From Pseudomonadota bacterium (GTDB lineage Bacteria > Pseudomonadota > Gammaproteobacteria > Pseudomonadales > UBA5518), in the NCBI GenBank assembly GCA_022705125.1, contig JAKJFB010000003.1, forward strand, positions 1-16,297: a stretch of DNA of 16,297 nucleotides. Direction: 5' to 3'. Both the position numbers and the translations under genes were made by a program. The stretch's first letter is position 1, and the number at the start of each line of letters is the position of its first letter. Below the pieces are notes generated by a model. That model saw only the letters and a list, made by a program, of their open reading frames with translations, did not search any database and was not told where the DNA came from. Shown here piece by piece: positions 8,378-14,931 of this stretch.

Positions 8378-10162
8378 ATGAACTCGATTGCAGAACGACT
8401 CGGCGCGGTGCGCGAGCAGATGCGCCAGCGCGGTCTCGACGCGCTGATCGTGCCGCGCGCCGACGAATACCTCGGCGAATACATCCCGGCGCGCAACGAG
8501 CGGCTGCGCTGGATCAGCGGCTTCACCGGCTCGGCGGGCGTGGTGGTCGTGCTCGCCGACGCGGCGGCGATCTTCGTCGATGGCCGCTACACCGTGCAGG
8601 TTCGCCAGCAGGTGTCGGAGCAACTGTTCGAAGTCCTCCATCTGGTCGACGAGCCGCACGCGCGCTGGCTGGGCAAGCGGCTCGGCGAAGGCAGGCGCGT
8701 CGGCTACGACCCGCGCATGCACACGCTGGCGTGGCAGAAGAAGACCGCCGACACGCTGGCGCGCAGCGGCGTCGAACTTCTGGCGCTGGAGGAGAATCTC
8801 ATCGACCTGTGCTGGCGTGATCGCCCGCAGCCCGAGCGCCATCCCGCGATCCTGCTGGAGATGCGTTACACCGGCAAGTCGAGCGCGGACAAGCGGCGCG
8901 AGATCGGCGCGGCCATCGCCGGGCAGGGCGCCGACGCCGCGCTGGTGTTCGCGGCCGACTCGGTGGCCTGGCTGCTGAACATCCGCGGCAGCGACGTGCC
9001 GCACCTGCCGCTGGTGCTGGGCCATGCCCTGCTCCACGCCGACGGCAGGCTCGCGTTCTTCACCGACCCGCTGAAAATTCCCGCGGGCTTCGAGGCGCAC
9101 ACCGGCGCGGGCGTCGAGGTGCTCGCCGAGAGCGAGGCGGATGCCTCGTTCCGCGCCCTCGCCGGCAGGCGCGTGCTGGCGGATCCGGACACGGCCAACG
9201 CCTGGTGCCAGCTGCGCCTCGCGGCGCACGGCGCCGAACTGGTCGCCGGCGCCGATCCGGTGCTGCTGCCCAAGGCGTGCAAGAACGCCGCCGAGATTGC
9301 CGGCATGCGCGCCGCGCATATCCGCGATGCGGTTGCCGAGATCCGCTTCCTCGCCTGGCTCGACGCCGAGGTCGCGGCGCAACGCCTGCACGACGAGGCG
9401 ACGCTGTGCGAACGGCTCCACGCTTTCCGTGCCGCCGACCCGCTGCTGAAGGACCTGAGCTTCGACACCATTTCCGCGGCCGGCGGCAACGCCGCGATGT
9501 GCCACTACCGACACTCCGACACCGATCCCGGACGCCTGGAGATGAACAGCGTCTACCTCGTGGACAGCGGCGCGCAGTACCTCGACGGCACCACCGATAT
9601 CACGCGTACCGTCGCGATCGGGGATGCGGGCGCGGAGATCCGGCGCATGGCAACGCTGGTGCTGAAGGGCCACATCGCGCTCGACCAGGCGCGCTTCCCC
9701 AAGGGCACCACCGGCACGCAGCTCGATGTGCTGGCGCGCCAGTTCCTGTGGCGCGAGGGCTTCGACTACGACCACGGTACCGGCCACGGCGTCGGCAGCT
9801 TCCTCAGCGTGCACGAGGGGCCACAACGCATCGGCAAGGCCTGCAGCGCCGCCGAGCTCAGTCCCGGCATGGTGGTGAGCAACGAACCGGGCTACTACAA
9901 GGCCGACTGCTACGGCATCCGCCACGAGAACCTCCTGCTGGTGAAGGAGCTCGGGCAGCAGCCCGGCGCCGACCGCGCGATGTACGGTTTCGAGGCGCTG
10001 ACGCTGGTGCCCTTCGACCGCGCGCTGCTGGACCCCGCGCTGATGACAGGCGAGGAGATCGCGTGGCTGAATGCCTACCACCGGCGCGTGCGCGAGACCA
10101 TCGGGCCGTTGCTGGACGGCAGCGACCGCGCGTGGCTGGAGAACGCGACGCGCGAACTGTAG
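8378..10162 (+). CDS. Aminopeptidase P family protein (three-domain Xaa-Pro aminopeptidase, M24B)
   Basis: 594 residues. This matches the long XPNPEP1-like form: two creatinase-type N-terminal domains (about 1-150 and 155-300), the pita-bread metallopeptidase domain (about 310-525) and a short C-terminal extension. It is shorter neither at the start nor at the end than that family, and longer than E. coli PepP. Metal ligands are all present: Asp396 (VDSG), Asp407 (TTDIT), His470 (GTGHG), Glu503 (NEPGYY) and Glu517 (RHEN). The supporting histidines are His376 (CHYRH) and His479 (VHEGP). It should remove N-terminal residues preceding proline from peptides in the cytosol. The last codons are CTG-TAG, and this TAG is part of the REP-like arm CTGTAGGT. 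An IS1182 element begins 10 bases beyond. Confidence 0.92.
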   Translation: MNSIAERLGAVREQMRQRGLDALIVPRADEYLGEYIPARNERLRWISGFTGSAGVVVVLADAAAIFVDGRYTVQVRQQVSEQLFEVLHLVDEPHARWLGKRLGEGRRVGYDPRMHTLAWQKKTADTLARSGVELLALEENLIDLCWRDRPQPERHPAILLEMRYTGKSSADKRREIGAAIAGQGADAALVFAADSVAWLLNIRGSDVPHLPLVLGHALLHADGRLAFFTDPLKIPAGFEAHTGAGVEVLAESEADASFRALAGRRVLADPDTANAWCQLRLAAHGAELVAGADPVLLPKACKNAAEIAGMRAAHIRDAVAEIRFLAWLDAEVAAQRLHDEATLCERLHAFRAADPLLKDLSFDTISAAGGNAAMCHYRHSDTDPGRLEMNSVYLVDSGAQYLDGTTDITRTVAIGDAGAEIRRMATLVLKGHIALDQARFPKGTTGTQLDVLARQFLWREGFDYDHGTGHGVGSFLSVHEGPQRIGKACSAAELSPGMVVSNEPGYYKADCYGIRHENLLLVKELGQQPGADRAMYGFEALTLVPFDRALLDPALMTGEEIAWLNAYHRRVRETIGPLLDGSDRAWLENATREL

Positions 10163-10172
10163 GTCGGCATGA
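10157..10172 (+). repeat. Left fragment of an interrupted REP-like palindrome
   Basis: Bases 10157-10164 read CTGTAGGT, and their exact reverse complement ACCTACAG lies at 13175-13182. Next comes CGGCAT (10165-10170), whose complement ATGCCG lies at 11780-11785. The two insertion sequences split what looks like one GTAG-class REP palindrome. The TAG stop of the aminopeptidase gene (10160-10162) is inside the GTAG motif. Confidence 0.6.
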
Positions 10173-10196
10173 AGAGCCTGTGTAAAAACTCCGCCG
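10173..10196 (+). repeat. IS1182 left terminal inverted repeat
   Basis: Starts AGAGCCTGTGT and ends CCGCCG. Compared with the right repeat, it differs at positions 12, 14 and 18 of 24. Complementarity could be extended outward to 10165 (CGGCAT), but that part is better explained as target palindrome. Confidence 0.88.
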
Positions 10197-10239
10197 CGTG
10201 AATCACACTATGCCCGAGCATGGCGCGAGGGCGTAGTGG

Positions 10240-11631
10240 ATGGCACATGTGCGTGGAGTGAATCGTTCGCAAAGCAGCCTGTTTCCCGAATCGCTGGATG
10301 ATTTCATCGGGCCGGACCACGTGGTGCGGTTGATCGACGGGTTTGTCTCGACGCTGGATCTGGTGGCACTGGGATTCGCCAAGGCTGTGCCAGCCAGGAC
10401 GGGTCGCCCGCCCTACGATCCGGCGGATCTGCTGAAGCTCTACATCTACGGCTACATGAGTCACGTGCGCTCGAGCCGGCGCCTGGAGCGCGAGAGCCAG
10501 CGCAACATCGAACTGCTGTGGCTGCTGCACCGGGTGAGCCCGGATCACAAGACGATTGCAAACTTCCGCCGCGCCAACGGCGAGGCGATCGGCAAGCTGA
10601 CCAGTGCCTTCGTGCGCTTCTGCCGCGAGGCCTCGCTGCTGGGCGATCTGGTGGCGATCGACGGGAGCAGGTTTGCGGCCTCGAACGCGCTGGACCGGGT
10701 GGTCAAGCGCCAGGAAGTGGCGCGGGAGCTCGAGCGGGTGCAGGCGTACCTCGAGGGACTAGAGCAGGCCGATGCCGCGGAGGTCGATCTGGTCGAGGGG
10801 GTGGATGTGGCGGCGGCCACCCAGGCCCTGCAGGCGCTGAAGCAGCGCGGCGAACTGGAAGCGCTGCTGGCGCAGATGGACGAGGCCGGCAGCGAGCAGC
10901 TGGGGCTGACGGATACGGACGCACGCAAGATGCCGGTGACGCAGGGCGGCGGGTTCCAGGTGGGCTACAACGTGCAGGTGGCGGTGGACACGCAGACGCA
11001 CCTGATCGTGCATGAAGAGGTCACCGACGCGGTGGTCGACCGCGGGCAGCTCAAGCCGATGGTCGAGGGCATCCGGCGAGCGCTGGAGCACGACGCCTTT
11101 GCGGTCGTGGCCGAAGCGGGGTACTCGAAGGCCGACGATGCGGCGCACTGCGAGGCGCTGGGGATTACCACCTATGTGTCGCGTGAGCACGGGGTGAACC
11201 GGCACGGGTTGTTCGACAAGCGGGCGTTTGTCTACGAGGCCGAGGCGGACCGCTACCGCTGCCCGGCGGGACAGTATCTGGCTTATCAGGGCACGAACCG
11301 GCGCGACCGGATGCGCCAGTACCGGGCGACACGTTGCCGGGGTTGCCCGCTGAAGGCGCAATGCACCACGGCCCGGGTGCGCACGGTGGTGCGCCACGAA
11401 GAGGAAGCCGCGCTGGAACGGATGGACCGGCGGGCCCGCGACAACCCGCAGGTCCTGCGCCGGCGCAAGGCGACGGTGGAGCACGTGTTCGGGACACTGA
11501 AGAGTCTGATCCCGCGCTTCGTGATGCGCGGGCGAGCGCACGTGAGGACAGAAATCAGCCTGGCGACGCTGGCCTACAACCTGAAGCGGATGATGACGTT
11601 ACGAGCAGCGGCCGTCTTCAGCCCCGCGTGA
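10240..11631 (+). CDS. IS1182-family DDE transposase, possible catalytic substitution
   Basis: 463 residues, full length for the family. The N-terminus has the usual SLFPESLDDFIGPDHVVRLID block and RPPYDPADLLKLYIYGY. The DDE core shows Asp141 in VAIDGSRF, DARKM followed by GYNVQVAVD, and Glu414 in TVEHVFGTLK with Lys421 in the E-(6)-K spacing. The second acidic position normally reads ADAGY or similar. Here it is AEAGY with Glu292 (codon GAA at 11113), which may reduce or abolish activity. A zinc-finger-like CRGCPLKAQC lies before the last motif. ATG at 10240 has GAGGG about 8 bases upstream. It would excise and insert the surrounding element. Confidence 0.93.
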   Translation: MAHVRGVNRSQSSLFPESLDDFIGPDHVVRLIDGFVSTLDLVALGFAKAVPARTGRPPYDPADLLKLYIYGYMSHVRSSRRLERESQRNIELLWLLHRVSPDHKTIANFRRANGEAIGKLTSAFVRFCREASLLGDLVAIDGSRFAASNALDRVVKRQEVARELERVQAYLEGLEQADAAEVDLVEGVDVAAATQALQALKQRGELEALLAQMDEAGSEQLGLTDTDARKMPVTQGGGFQVGYNVQVAVDTQTHLIVHEEVTDAVVDRGQLKPMVEGIRRALEHDAFAVVAEAGYSKADDAAHCEALGITTYVSREHGVNRHGLFDKRAFVYEAEADRYRCPAGQYLAYQGTNRRDRMRQYRATRCRGCPLKAQCTTARVRTVVRHEEEAALERMDRRARDNPQVLRRRKATVEHVFGTLKSLIPRFVMRGRAHVRTEISLATLAYNLKRMMTLRAAAVFSPA

Positions 11632-11753
11632 GGGGCACGGGGGTGCTGTGCGTGCGTTCAGCGCGCTGCACAGCGCCCAAAGCCCCGAAAAAACCTGGCC
11701 GACAGCGAAGCGGCAAAAGCCATCCGCTTCTGGCAGCCATTACCCACGACTAC

Positions 11754-11777
11754 CGGCGGGGTTCTGACACAGGCTCT
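11754..11777 (-). repeat. IS1182 right terminal inverted repeat
   Basis: Reads CGGCGGGG ... ACACAGGCTCT on the + strand, so its complement begins AGAGCCTGTGT like the left end. It ends 11 bases before the inverted repeat of the neighbouring IS110 element. Confidence 0.88.
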
Positions 11778-11788
11778 GAATGCCGTAT
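11778..11788. repeat. Middle fragment of the interrupted REP, between the two insertion sequences
   Basis: Eleven bases, GAATGCCGTAT, are all that separates the two elements. ATGCCG is the partner of CGGCAT at 10165-10170. CCGTAT continues into the IS110 end as CCGTATAT (11783-11790), which is repeated exactly inside the IS110 non-coding region at 11844-11851. Confidence 0.55.
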
Positions 11789-11802
11789 ATGGTCCCCTCC
11801 CT
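11789..11802 (+). repeat. IS110/IS1111 inverted repeat, transposase 3' side
   Basis: ATGGTCCCCTCCCT, identical to the reverse complement of 13154-13167 at all 14 bases. Confidence 0.88.
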
Positions 11803-12060
11803 GTTTGCAAGGTTTCCAGATCTGGTTTGCGGAGAGATTGCACCCGTATATCCGACCTGTTGATGGGAGCGGTTGTCTGTAGCTCCCTGGCCATCATGGA
11901 TATTCGCGCACGCGCTGCCCATCGACCTAGCGACCTGTGACGGTCTCGGCATTCACCGGCTTTCACGCGTGGGGATGACTCCTCTTGCCACGATCTATCG
12001 ACCCGCAATCGGGGAGGCGTGCGCGCCTCCGTTGTTGCACTAACGCCGCAAGACTTTCGC
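11803..12060 (-). ncRNA. Candidate bridge RNA/seekRNA of the IS110-family element
   Basis: This gene-free tail follows the transposase stop on the minus strand. In IS1111-type elements the guide RNA is known to come from this position. Read as minus-strand RNA, UCCCAUCAAC (11868-11859) is exactly complementary to the minus-strand DNA at one element junction (13167-13176). AUAUACGG (11851-11844) is identical to the minus strand at the other junction (11790-11783). A plausible fold has an outer stem AUAUCC/GGAUAU (11903-11898 with 11853-11848) and an inner stem GGGAGC/GCUCCC (11887-11882 with 11870-11865) with an 11-base loop. The first guide partly overlaps the inner stem. Transcript ends are unknown; the guide core is about 11840-11905. 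Confidence 0.55.
12013..12030 (-). other. Perfect hairpin downstream of the IS110 transposase
   Basis: GGAGGCG and CGCCTCC form a 7-bp stem around a 4-base loop, 30 bases beyond the transposase stop. No U-run follows. It may end or process the transposase transcript, or form the first structured element of the guide RNA. Confidence 0.5.
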
Positions 12061-13089
12061 CTAAGCGGCCACCATCTGATACGTCTCACCGCTGCGCAGC
12101 AGCGCCCAGGCTGTGCGCACGTTACGATTGGCCAGCGCCACCGCCGCCACGTTCGCGTGGTGCGTCGCCGCCACCTCCCGGACCCAGCGACTGCGCCGGT
12201 CCTCCTTGGTGCCCGCCGTGCGCAGCGCCGCGCGCGCCCCGTGCACCAGCAACGTGCGCAAATACCGGTCCCCGCGCTTACTGATACCCAACAGCCGTTC
12301 CTTGCCCCCGCTCGAATGCTGTCGCGGCACCAGCCCCAGGAAGGCCGCGCACTGGCGCCCCTTCTCGAACTGCGCCCCATCCCCCAACAGCGCCACCCAC
12401 GCCGTCGCCGTCAACGGGCCGATCCCCGGGATACTCATCAACCGCACACACCGCGGATCCTGGTGCGCTAGGTGCTCGAGCTTCCCGTCCAGGCGCGCCA
12501 CCTTCTCGTCGAGCTCGCACAGCTCCTGGTAACTCTCCGCGTACGCCTCGCGCGCCGTTGCCGACAGGCTATTGCCCGCATCCTCCAGCAGCCGCGGCAA
12601 GGCCCGGCGCAGCAACCCCAGCCCCTTGCTGACCACGATCCCGTACTGCCCCAGCGTCCCGCGGATCTGGTTGGCCAGCGCCGTGCGCCGCTTCACGTAC
12701 TGCTCGCGCTGGCGATGCAACAGCATCAGATCGTGCTGCTCCAGGCTCTTGACCGCCACAAAACGCATCGTCGGGCGGCCCACTGCCTCGCAGATCGCCT
12801 CCGCATCGCGGGCATCGTTCTTGTTCGCCTTCACGTACGGCTTCACGAACGCCGGGTTCATAATCCGCGCGTCGTACCCCAGCTTGATCAACTCCCGCGC
12901 CCAATAATCCGACCCGCAGCACGATTCCATCCCCACCACACATCCCTCGACGCGATCGAGGCGGGCAAAGAACGCCAAAACCTGACGCCGTTTGAGTTGG
13001 CGGCGCACCATCACGCACTCTTCAGCATCCACCCCGTGCACCTGGAATACGTCCTTTGCCAGATCCAAACCCACGCGTGTAATCTTCAT
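12061..13089 (-). CDS. IS110-family transposase (DEDD, RNA-guided recombinase)
   Basis: 342 residues, full length. The N-terminal RuvC-like DEDD domain shows GLDLAKDVFQVHG with Asp9, GMESC with Glu55 and NKNDARDAEAICEAV with Asp92/Asp95. A helical middle follows. The C-terminal Transposase_20 domain has the hairpin PGIGPLTA at 221-228 and LGLVPRQHSSGGKERLLGISKRGD, which contains the catalytic serine (Ser259 or Ser260). All key residues are present, so the enzyme looks active. The start ATG at 13089 is chosen over an upstream in-frame GTG because AGGAGGGG lies 6-7 bases before it and homology begins at MKITRVGLDLAK. Family members cut and exchange strands at sites chosen by an RNA from the same element. 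Confidence 0.95.
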   Translation of the reverse strand: MKITRVGLDLAKDVFQVHGVDAEECVMVRRQLKRRQVLAFFARLDRVEGCVVGMESCCGSDYWARELIKLGYDARIMNPAFVKPYVKANKNDARDAEAICEAVGRPTMRFVAVKSLEQHDLMLLHRQREQYVKRRTALANQIRGTLGQYGIVVSKGLGLLRRALPRLLEDAGNSLSATAREAYAESYQELCELDEKVARLDGKLEHLAHQDPRCVRLMSIPGIGPLTATAWVALLGDGAQFEKGRQCAAFLGLVPRQHSSGGKERLLGISKRGDRYLRTLLVHGARAALRTAGTKEDRRSRWVREVAATHHANVAAVALANRNVRTAWALLRSGETYQMVAA

Positions 13090-13153
13090 CTCGGTCCCCT
13101 CCTGACGTTTGACTGGAACACCGATCCCAGTCTGGCACTCGATGCCGGTAAGG

Positions 13154-13167
13154 AGGGAGGGGACCAT
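13154..13167 (-). repeat. IS110/IS1111 inverted repeat, transposase 5' side
   Basis: AGGGAGGGGACCAT on the + strand, the exact complement of 11789-11802. It lies 65 bases upstream of the transposase start codon. Confidence 0.88.
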
Positions 13168-13182
13168 CCCATCAACCTACAG
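13168..13182 (-). repeat. Right fragment of the interrupted REP-like palindrome
   Basis: CCCATCA followed by ACCTACAG. The last eight bases are the exact complement of CTGTAGGT at 10157-10164. On the minus strand it reads CTGTAGGTTGATGGG, a GTAG-type REP start. The TAG stop codon of glgC (13179-13177) lies inside it, mirroring the arrangement in the aminopeptidase gene. Confidence 0.6.
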
Positions 13183-14484
13183 GCGCGTGCCGTCGGGAAT
13201 CACGCCGTTCTTCGGGATCACCACGATGCCATCGCGGATGCAGTACAGATCGTGGTCGAAATTCTCCGGCTTGCCCTGCGGCGAGATCACGACGTGGCTG
13301 CCGATGCGCGCGTTCTTGTCGATGATCGCATTGCTGATGTGCGTGTGCTCGCCGATGCCGATGCGCGGCCAGCCGCGCGCCGCGGCTTCGCGTATCGAGG
13401 CGTCGGACTCGTAGTAGTCGCCGCCGAAACTCACCACGCGATGCAGCGTCGATCCCGCGCCCACGATGCTGCGGATCCCGATCAGGCTGTGCGAGATACG
13501 CGAGGGGTTGATGATGCATCCGTCGGAGATCACGGCGTGGTCGATCTGCGCGCCGTTGATCTTCGAGGCCGGCAGGAAGCGCGGGTGGGTGAAGATCGGC
13601 GCCGCCATGTTGAAGAAGTCGAATTGCGGCAGCTCGCGCGTGGTGTCGAGGTTGGCCTCGAAGAACGAGCGGATCGTGCCGATGTCCTCCCAGTAGCCGT
13701 CGAACACGAAGGCGTGCACGCGATGGCTGTCTATCGCGCCCGGAATGATGTGCTTGCCGAAATCCGTGAGCGTGTTGTCCAGCAGGTCGAGCAGCACCTG
13801 GCGCCTGAACACGTAAATCCCCATCGAGGCGAGAAAGCGTTCGCCGCTGGCTGCGAGCCCGAGCGCGGCGGCGGCCGCCGCATCGAGGCGCAGCGAGTCC
13901 AGCAGTTGCGGGTCCTGCGGTTTCTCGACGAAGCGCGCGACGCGGTTGCCCTCGCCAAGCTGCATGATGCCGAGCGCGGGAGCCGCCTCGCGCCCGATCG
14001 CGAGCGTCGCGACCGTGAGATCGGCGCCGGTGTCGACGTGCTGCTCGATGAGCAGGCGGAAATCCATGCGGTAGAGCTGGTCGCCGCTGAGGATCAGCAC
14101 GTGATCGAAGTCGTGGCTCAGCAGGTGCTGCAGGTTCTTGCGCACCGCGTCGGCCGTGCCCTGGTACCAGCTCTGCGTGGTCGGGGTCTGCTCCGCGGCG
14201 AGGATCTGCACGAAGCCGCCGCCGAAGTGATCGAGCAGGTAGGACTGGGCGATGTGCCGGTGCAGCGAGGCCGAGTTGAACTGTGTCAGCACGTAGACGC
14301 GGCGCAGGCCGGAATTGAGGCAGTTGGAGATCGGGATGTCCACCAACCGGTACTTGCCGGCCAGCGGTACCGCGGGCTTGGATCGTTCGCGCGTCAGCGG
14401 ATAGAGCCGCGTGCCGGCGCCTCCGCCCATGATCACGCTGAGTACGCGCTGGTTGTTGGCTCTGGCTCGTGAAGTTCCGGGCAT
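13177..14484 (-). CDS. glgC: Glucose-1-phosphate adenylyltransferase (ADP-glucose pyrophosphorylase)
   Basis: 435 residues. It makes ADP-glucose from ATP and glucose-1-phosphate, the committed step of glycogen synthesis in the cytosol. The N-terminal nucleotidyltransferase domain has GGGAGTRLYPL at 20-30, KPAVPLAGKYRL, WYQGTADAV at 106-114, catalytic Asp135 in SGDQLY, Lys188 in FVEKP (sugar phosphate binding) and WEDIGT at 265-270. The C-terminal left-handed beta-helix (about 300-435) ends GIVVIPKNGVIPDGTRL. These motifs resemble cyanobacterial/plant enzymes more than the E. coli type. ATG at 14484 is preferred over a TTG at 14508 since neither has a clear ribosome site and the homology begins just after. 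No other glycogen gene is visible. The stop lies in a REP-like arm next to the IS110 element. Confidence 0.95.
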   Translation of the reverse strand: MPGTSRARANNQRVLSVIMGGGAGTRLYPLTRERSKPAVPLAGKYRLVDIPISNCLNSGLRRVYVLTQFNSASLHRHIAQSYLLDHFGGGFVQILAAEQTPTTQSWYQGTADAVRKNLQHLLSHDFDHVLILSGDQLYRMDFRLLIEQHVDTGADLTVATLAIGREAAPALGIMQLGEGNRVARFVEKPQDPQLLDSLRLDAAAAAALGLAASGERFLASMGIYVFRRQVLLDLLDNTLTDFGKHIIPGAIDSHRVHAFVFDGYWEDIGTIRSFFEANLDTTRELPQFDFFNMAAPIFTHPRFLPASKINGAQIDHAVISDGCIINPSRISHSLIGIRSIVGAGSTLHRVVSFGGDYYESDASIREAAARGWPRIGIGEHTHISNAIIDKNARIGSHVVISPQGKPENFDHDLYCIRDGIVVIPKNGVIPDGTRL

Positions 14485-14561
14485 GAATCGGCGCCGTTGC
14501 AGGGGCAAGGCGCCGGATTATTGCATAGCGGGTCGATGTGTCGTGCGCGCTGCTGCGATGC

Positions 14562-14583
14562 GGGCCGGACCGCAGCCCGGCCC
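14562..14583 (-). terminator. GC-rich hairpin after the small secreted protein gene
   Basis: GGGCCGG (14562-14568) pairs with CCGGCCC (14577-14583) around an 8-base loop, 12 bases beyond the stop codon on the minus strand. No U-run follows. It could be a weak terminator or attenuator between this gene and glgC. Nothing else stands out in the 111 bases between the two genes. Confidence 0.4.
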
Positions 14584-14595
14584 AAGGGTCGGTTC

Positions 14596-14931
14596 TCAGC
14601 GCGCGGCGCTCATTGCCAGCTCGGGCCGCGTGCCGCGGGCGCGCGGGGCCAGCCCGATGACTTCACCACTGCGGCCGTTCACCTCGCAGATCGCCAGGAA
14701 AGCCTTGCCGCCATCGGCCGGCAGTACCTGCATGCGCACCTTGCGACTGTCGTTGCCACCATAGACACCCTTGAACTTGACCCGCGCGGGGCGTTCGCCC
14801 GATGCGTACTGCGATGCCGCCTGCGCCTTGCACGCCGTGGCCGCCTCGGCCACCGACATCGATGCCGCCGATACCGTCGAGGCCATGCCTGCGACCACTG
14901 CCGTCAATACCACGCCGTAGATCGTCTTCAT
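14596..14931 (-). CDS. Small secreted protein of unknown function
   Basis: 111 residues, not recognised. MKTIYGVVLTAVVAGMASTVSA is preceded by no other domain and looks like a Sec signal peptide cut after Ala22, leaving a periplasmic or secreted protein of about 89 residues. It contains two cysteines, Cys34 and Cys82, that could form a disulfide. The middle (ARVKFKGVYGGNDSRKVRMQVL) looks like beta strands, followed by FLAICEVNGRSGEVIGLAPR. The start ATG at 14931 has GAGGAGA 6 bases upstream, while earlier in-frame starts have none. It is divergent from the LysR gene across 115 bases, so that regulator may control it. It precedes glgC on the same strand. Confidence 0.75.
   Translation of the reverse strand: MKTIYGVVLTAVVAGMASTVSAASMSVAEAATACKAQAASQYASGERPARVKFKGVYGGNDSRKVRMQVLPADGGKAFLAICEVNGRSGEVIGLAPRARGTRPELAMSAAR

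Follow-up and report, generated by a model that had tools for sequence, protein, structure and literature searches.

The window, the whole stretch of 16,297 nucleotides analysed here, carries an IS1111-group element of 1389 bp on the minus strand (11786..13174). Its transposase gene (12061..13089, minus strand) encodes a protein of the DEDD type with both Pfam domains present, DEDD_Tnp_IS110 (PF01548) and Transposase_20 (PF02371), and the GL-P----S(t)G motif of the group can be seen by eye in the translation as GLVPRQHSSG. The open reading frame as listed runs from 13167 to 12061 (minus strand), and the likely start, judged from the translation, is the internal ATG at 13089 (MKITRVGLDL...). 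Only 64 bp separate the left repeat from this likely start, while about 260 bp of non-coding DNA (12060 to 11803), the tail, lie 3' of the transposase. The features by which the IS1111 group is recognised, DEDD domains, sub-terminal repeats, extensions of 7 and 3 nt, a long downstream non-coding region and the motif, are all found in the window.

Ends and insertion site of the element

The sub-terminal inverted repeats are perfect and 14 bp long (left, 13154..13167; right, 11789..11802; both minus strand), against the 11-13 bp perfect or near-perfect sub-terminal repeats usual for the group. The accessible text of PMC11187229 gives the rule that IS1111 elements run on past their repeats, by 7 nt on the left and 3 nt on the right, and the ends of the 34 IS1111-type elements laid out here fit it. 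By this rule the window element has a left extension TGATGGG, the right donor (13168..13174, minus strand), and a right extension ATA, the left donor (11786..11788, minus strand). In transposase sense the layout is GTAGGT|TGATGGG-repeat, then the body of the element, then repeat-ATA|CGGCATTCA. The boundaries are set at 11785|11786 and 13174|13175 because unbroken joins exist in the window's intact left palindrome arm and in a related genome, G064. In the left arm (10157-10170) GTAGGT is joined directly to CGGCAT. The sole intact REP found in G064 (L066) is TAGGTCGGATT, in which TAGGT is joined to CGGATT, in agreement with the flanks of L001 and L006, elements of that genome. The IS1111 group makes no target duplication.

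Two further observations concern the ends. In 30 of 32 elements, and in 12 of the 19 held-out elements described below, the left extension and the right flank begin with the same letter; the window is an exception (13174 against 11785), with T in the left extension and C in the right flank. There is also a third copy of the repeat at 13091-13102, immediately before the transposase start codon or overlapping it. It agrees at 10 of 12 positions in the window and at 12 of 12 in L001, L006 and L045, and an agreement of 9 of 12 or better is seen in 15 of the 34 elements (shuffles have a mean of 2.67 and a maximum of 7). A ribosome-binding site may explain part of this signal.

The element lies in a near-perfect palindrome whose arms (10157-10173, 11777-11785 and 13175-13182) hold the stop codons of convergent pepP-like and glgC genes. 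The plus strand reads ACCTACAG at the left target flank (13175..13182), which overlaps the glgC stop codon, and TGAATGCCG at the right target flank (11777..11785). The intact left arm, CTGTAGGTCGGCAT (10157..10170, plus strand), overlaps the pepP stop codon. A second element with IS1182-type domains, which we take to belong to the family of that name, occupies the centre of the palindrome from 10174 to 11776, with TGAA on both sides. An earlier note on this DNA had placed the IS1111 element inside a REP, and it does lie inside a REP-like palindrome, so termed by its likeness to the G064 palindrome only. A repeated REP was not found in the host: the core GTAGGTCGGCAT is in none of the collected loci. 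A wider palindrome pattern matched one of eight genomes, once, in G064, and none of the six nearest-genus genomes or G265. The stretch after pepP is without the palindrome in all five nearest-genus loci, and the search for an empty site gave no glgC match in any of the six nearest-genus genomes.

Four guide places in the tail

The earlier note had proposed that two short segments of the tail, matching the two element junctions, act as a pair of target guides. Its sequences, strands and coordinates are right: TCCCATCAAC is read on the minus strand at 11868-11859 and on the plus strand at 13167-13176, and ATATACGG is read on the minus strand both at 11851-11844 and at 11790-11783. The matches do begin in the last base or bases of the repeats, but they reach out into the REP less far than had been described. 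Because the element ends at 11786 and 13174, 8 of the 10 and 5 of the 8 matched bases are its own terminal sequence, the left extension containing most of the first match, which leaves 2 and 3 bases for the host. The chance estimates were also too favourable. Instead of about 1 in 2000, a match of at least 10 at the left junction on either strand arose in 18 of 3000 shuffles (0.6%), and a match of at least 8 at the right junction, put at under 1 in 100, arose in 308 of 3000 (10%). Both matches together were equalled in 2 of 3000 dinucleotide shuffles of the tail. Comparison across the family reverses the ranking by chance, since it backs the 8-mer and not the 10-mer.

That comparison covered 51 IS1111 elements, 32 at first and then 19 held out. 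For every element, each RNA place was scored against the element's own DNA and against the DNA of the other elements, with 20,000 permutations; the permutations leave some common descent in, and the ends in the first set are partly hand-chosen. Fifty sequences with a transposase match had been collected, of which 34 were kept by eye, with repeats starting ATG (AGG in L048). The 16 dropped were L002, L010, L013 to L022, L031, L036, L046 (the same copy as L006) and L047; L013 has a candidate repeat that was left unused. A lower-ranked repeat pair was taken for L008, L009, L026, L028 and L042, and the repeat start was moved by one base to fit in L007, L024, L035, L042 and L043. The first test used 32 of the 34 elements, with L006 and L040 set aside. 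The held-out loci came from a further protein search that covered 369 genomes of the class, and they were scored with the queries and regions of the first test. This search added 29 loci, of which 19 were used, nine of the others having no detected repeat and L080 being too short, while L085 was kept with its Ns.

Matches tend to fall in four places, counted back from the right repeat: a right target guide (RTG) at about -147 to -158, a left target guide (LTG) at about -115 to -132, a right donor guide (RDG) at about -85 to -104 and a left donor guide (LDG) at about -47 to -58. At all four the 32 elements fit their own DNA better than that of others, and none of the 20,000 permutations did as well. 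The mean own and other scores were 6.97 and 5.03 of 9 for the RTG, 6.66 and 4.67 of 8 for the LTG, 7.06 and 5.39 of 8 for the LDG and, the smallest effect of the four, 6.34 and 5.71 of 9 for the RDG. Seven controls in the wrong place or on the wrong strand were null in this set. In the 19 held-out elements the own score was equalled or exceeded in 0 (RTG), 0 (LTG), 3 (RDG) and 0 (LDG) of 20,000 permutations, and four controls were null. When 50 of the 51 elements (all except L085) were thinned by tail identity to 41, 27 and 15, all four signals were kept; at 15 elements the RDG stood at 2 of 20,000 and the other three at 0. The LDG also tracks the right extension: in the same 50 elements, the exact 6-mer made of AT, the extension and the following base was found in 26 of 31 elements with ATA, 8 of 8 with AGA, 3 of 3 with GTA, 2 of 3 with ACA, 2 of 4 with ACG and 0 of 1 with GGA. 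The four guide places thus covary with the target or with the element's ends, and the own-versus-other tests in the first and held-out sets reject a chance origin of the whole pattern.

In the window, three guides are clear and the RDG is weak. The RTG, UGAAUGCCGA (11946..11955, minus strand), is the complement of the right target CGGCATTCA together with one left base; in register it scores 9 of 9, and 0 of 31 other elements' flanks fit it equally well. The LTG, UAGGUCG (11923..11929, minus strand), is identical to the left target TAGGT followed by CG, with a score of 7 of 8 that 2 of 31 others equal. The LDG, AUAUACGG (11844..11851, minus strand), is identical to the right end ATATA followed by CGG, 8 of 8, again equalled by 2 of 31. 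The RDG place, AUAUCCAUGA (11894..11903, minus strand), is assigned by homology; it matches the element's own left end at 5 of 9 positions, a score that the left ends of 30 of 31 other elements equal or exceed. Two near relatives, L001 and L045, likewise mismatch at this place by eye. In the tail RNA the RTG (11955-11946) precedes the LTG (11929-11923), the order described for the seekRNA of IS1111, in which the top-strand complement lies 5' of the bottom-strand complement.

The second of the earlier segments is therefore the LDG itself: AUAUACGG occupies a conserved guide place, as had been supposed, but it reads the element's right end, as a donor guide, and not the target. The first, UCCCAUCAAC (11859..11868, minus strand), is out of register, consisting of the 3' strand of an apical hairpin and a CAUCAA linker. 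Its place scored 5.03 against own and 4.99 against other DNA in the 32 elements, with 8636 of 20,000 permutations at least as high, and 9684 of 20,000 in the held-out set; it remained null at 50, 41, 27 and 15 elements (5713, 5040, 3425 and 7638 of 20,000). Since UCCCAUCAAC is off register and without family signal, its match is probably a coincidence of hairpin and linker.

Predicted structure, and what the relatives read

An RNAalifold consensus of 32 of the 34 tails (L008 and L009 set aside) has two stem-loops. In this family structure 89.4% of cells are paired and 157 cells are changed on both sides. The covariation score is 0.659, while slid versions of the structure reach 0.195 at most; of the five covariation measures, the number of pairs changed on both sides (14) did not exceed shuffles (80 of 500). 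The target loop carries the RTG and LTG on its two strands around an inner hairpin (GACC/GGUC, 11932..11945, minus strand; alignment columns 52-55/69-72, 97.6% of cells paired). In the donor loop the RDG and LDG places flank a GGCC/GGYC stem, which in the window closes as GGCC/GGUC an inner stem-loop at 11854..11892 (minus strand; columns 115-118/150-153, 96.9% of cells paired). The inner stem GGGAGC/GCUCCC noted earlier is present as an apical hairpin in the window's predicted fold. The outer stem AUAUCC/GGAUAU is in that fold too, but across the 32 tails only 73.3% of its cells pair, against the 89.4% of the family structure. Its two innermost pairs are kept in 32 and 30 of 32 tails and one more in 14 of the 16 that have letters there, while the remaining three are broken in 11, 12 and 20 of 32. 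Taken alone, the window RNA folds no more stably than shuffles (z 0.02), and Rfam gave no match at E up to 1 across 9900-14600. With its four guide places and the family structure, the tail does have the anatomy of a guide RNA of the seekRNA or bridge-RNA type, as the earlier note had proposed.

The closest comparison is with REP-inserted relatives in G064 (L001, L006) and G265 (L045), whose transposases are 44% identical to the window's and which share the target GTAGGT|CGG and the 8-nt LDG. The tails of L001 and L045 are 68% identical to the window's, and all three elements have the LTG UAGGUCG beside the flank GTAGGT. They differ on the other side: L001 and L045 have the RTG (T/C)TAATCCG and the right flank CGGATTAG, whereas the window has the RTG TGAATGCCG and the right flank CGGCATTCA. 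By its letters, this difference is a natural change of target.

Closer copies were looked for. A DNA search with the tail matched 5 genomes among 145 relatives, with whole related tails only in G064. The transposase search of genome contigs gave 17 loci, with identities of up to 55% across almost the whole length and 73% within a short stretch. The top identity among the matches listed was 53% in 390 genomes of the order and 56% in 369 genomes of the class, loci being taken from 30 of the 37 matching genomes in each case, and the best on plasmids was 56%. Viral contigs gave no transposase relative by the patterns used. No near-identical copy of the window element was found in these searches with tail DNA and transposase.

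Elements present in several copies were compared in 12 groups (a 13th, G245, was outside the comparison), and in 8 of these the copies have identical tails over -170 to -40. All three copies in G077 share the flanks ggcttacc|cgcgctac, the two in G079 share 14 left and 7 right bases, and the two in G157 share 5 left and at least 14 right bases. Only short or broken common flank stretches occur in G221, G365 and G664, and the flanks agree loosely in G635 and G514. The five copies in G514 (L093, L100-L103) have identical tails and a right target at a variable offset before a CCGCCATG-like sequence, which suggests a looser target reading there.

The reading that we prefer, at a probability of roughly 80%, is that the 3' tail of this IS1111-group element encodes a two-stem-loop RNA of the bridge-RNA or seekRNA type, with four guide places for the target and for the element's own ends. 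The RTG and LTG would specify GTAGGT|CGGCATTCA, one arm of the palindrome on which the pepP-like gene and glgC converge, and the RDG and LDG would be donor guides that match the element's own ends. Transposase and guide RNA would join the ends into a circle, which would then insert at a matched site. The element's anatomy, its boundaries, the conserved structure and the covariation emerge from the sequence analysis; from the published mechanism of the family we infer transcription of the tail, actual base pairing, circle formation and activity of the window copy. Several observations count against this reading: the weak RDG, the T/C exception, the z of 0.02 and lack of an Rfam match, the loose target agreement in two multi-copy groups, the palindrome not found in the nearest genus and the lack of near-identical copies in which to test the guides.

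Might the target loop alone guide DNA? The RDG and LDG likeness would then reflect protein-binding motifs or copied ends, and the transposase would read the ends through the sub-terminal repeats. In the accessible part of PMC11187229 an 82-nt RNA is sufficient for transposition of ISEc11; if that RNA is without a donor loop, such a loop would not seem to be needed. The domain that binds IS1111 ends is left open by the authors. The RDG effect is also the smallest of the four, and the window's own RDG is weak. Against this, the LDG follows changes in the 3-nt right extension. The RDG complements the left end, and its signal is absent from two wrong places and returns in the held-out set. We consider this alternative unlikely.

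Still less probable is that UCCCAUCAAC is the working right donor guide of the window element, relocated to the linker strand. It is an exact 10-nt complement of the left junction, a match that few shuffles equalled, and the usual RDG place is degenerate in the window; yet its place has no family signal, the homologous segments of L001 and L045 fail to match their left ends, and the CATCAA linker, shared by 6 of 50 elements including the window, is combined with six different left extensions. That the two segments of the earlier note are target guides is hardly tenable despite their exact matches, as the joins in the left arm and in L066 place most matched bases inside the element and in-register target guides lie elsewhere. 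The pair was rejected on these grounds; the real target pair, UGAAUGCCGA and UAGGUCG, which the note had missed, lies 5' of them in the RNA, at a distance of about 60 to 105 nt.

A separate and doubtful proposal concerns the REP-targeting subgroup, in which the LTG strand might run past the junction base into the left extension, so that during excision one RNA strand would recognise the whole of the integrated left junction. If true, this would add to what is known of bridge RNAs, which read target and donor separately. In the window the RNA UAGGUCGAUGGG (11929-11918) agrees with the integrated left junction TAGGTTGATGGG at 11 of 12 positions; the agreement is 12 of 12 in L045 and 9 in a row in L001. 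A good LTG anchor is present in 24 of 32 elements, and in these the RNA after the LTG scores 3.25 (own) against 3.04 (other) of 6 for the left extension (29 of 20,000). It also fits the element's own right flank better (2.08 against 1.77, 249 of 20,000). The LTG with the following stretch scores 8.78 against 6.48 of 12 for the left junction and 7.62 against 6.11 for the target (each 0 of 20,000). A conserved GATNAGG in the RNA may explain the read-through signal.

Relation to known guide RNAs

ISEc11, ISPa11 and ISKpn4, as described in the accessible text of PMC11187229, share with the window element the sub-terminal repeats, the 7/3 extensions, the long non-coding region after the transposase and a seekRNA with the top-strand complement 5' of the bottom-strand complement; ISPa11 also has a REP-like target. 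They differ in the letters of target and guides, and donor-end matches are seen as well in the family compared here. The seekRNA of IS1111, a 70-100 nt RNA co-purified with the transposase, is assigned in those parts of PMC11187229 to target reading, the flanking target also being needed for excision. The bridge RNA of IS621 (PMC11208160, in the parts available) has target and donor loops, each with a left-half guide for the bottom strand and a right-half guide for the top strand, an arrangement that the window RNA resembles. For left and right donor guides our comparison gives a family signal in both cases, with the window LDG exact and the RDG weak. In the IS110 group the RNA is in the left end, whereas the window's RNA region follows the transposase, at the right end, in keeping with what has been published for IS1111. 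In each loop of the window RNA the right guide comes before the left, the reverse of the IS110 group as exemplified by ISEc21 (accessible part of PMC11187229), not by IS621 itself. Among solved structures, only IS621 and ISCro4 were matched by sequence at E up to 0.001.

Guide RNAs of the bridge-RNA and seekRNA type are already known, and the wider value of this one lies in the support that sequence comparison gives to donor guides in the RNA of IS1111 elements. Within its accessible text, PMC11208160 reports potential donor-binding nucleotides in the six IS110/IS1111 elements inspected. Our literature search, whose coverage leaves out most subscription journals, gave no title or abstract opening that reports a statistical test of IS1111 donor guides.

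As far as their available parts go, PMC11208160 and PMC11187229 give different answers to the question of whether the ends of an IS1111 element are read by RNA. The 51-element comparison, in which target and donor guide places covary with DNA, makes a compensatory-swap experiment straightforward. It also yields a rule by which the four guides can be placed in IS1111 tails like the window's, and it shows how readily terminal extensions are taken for the target.
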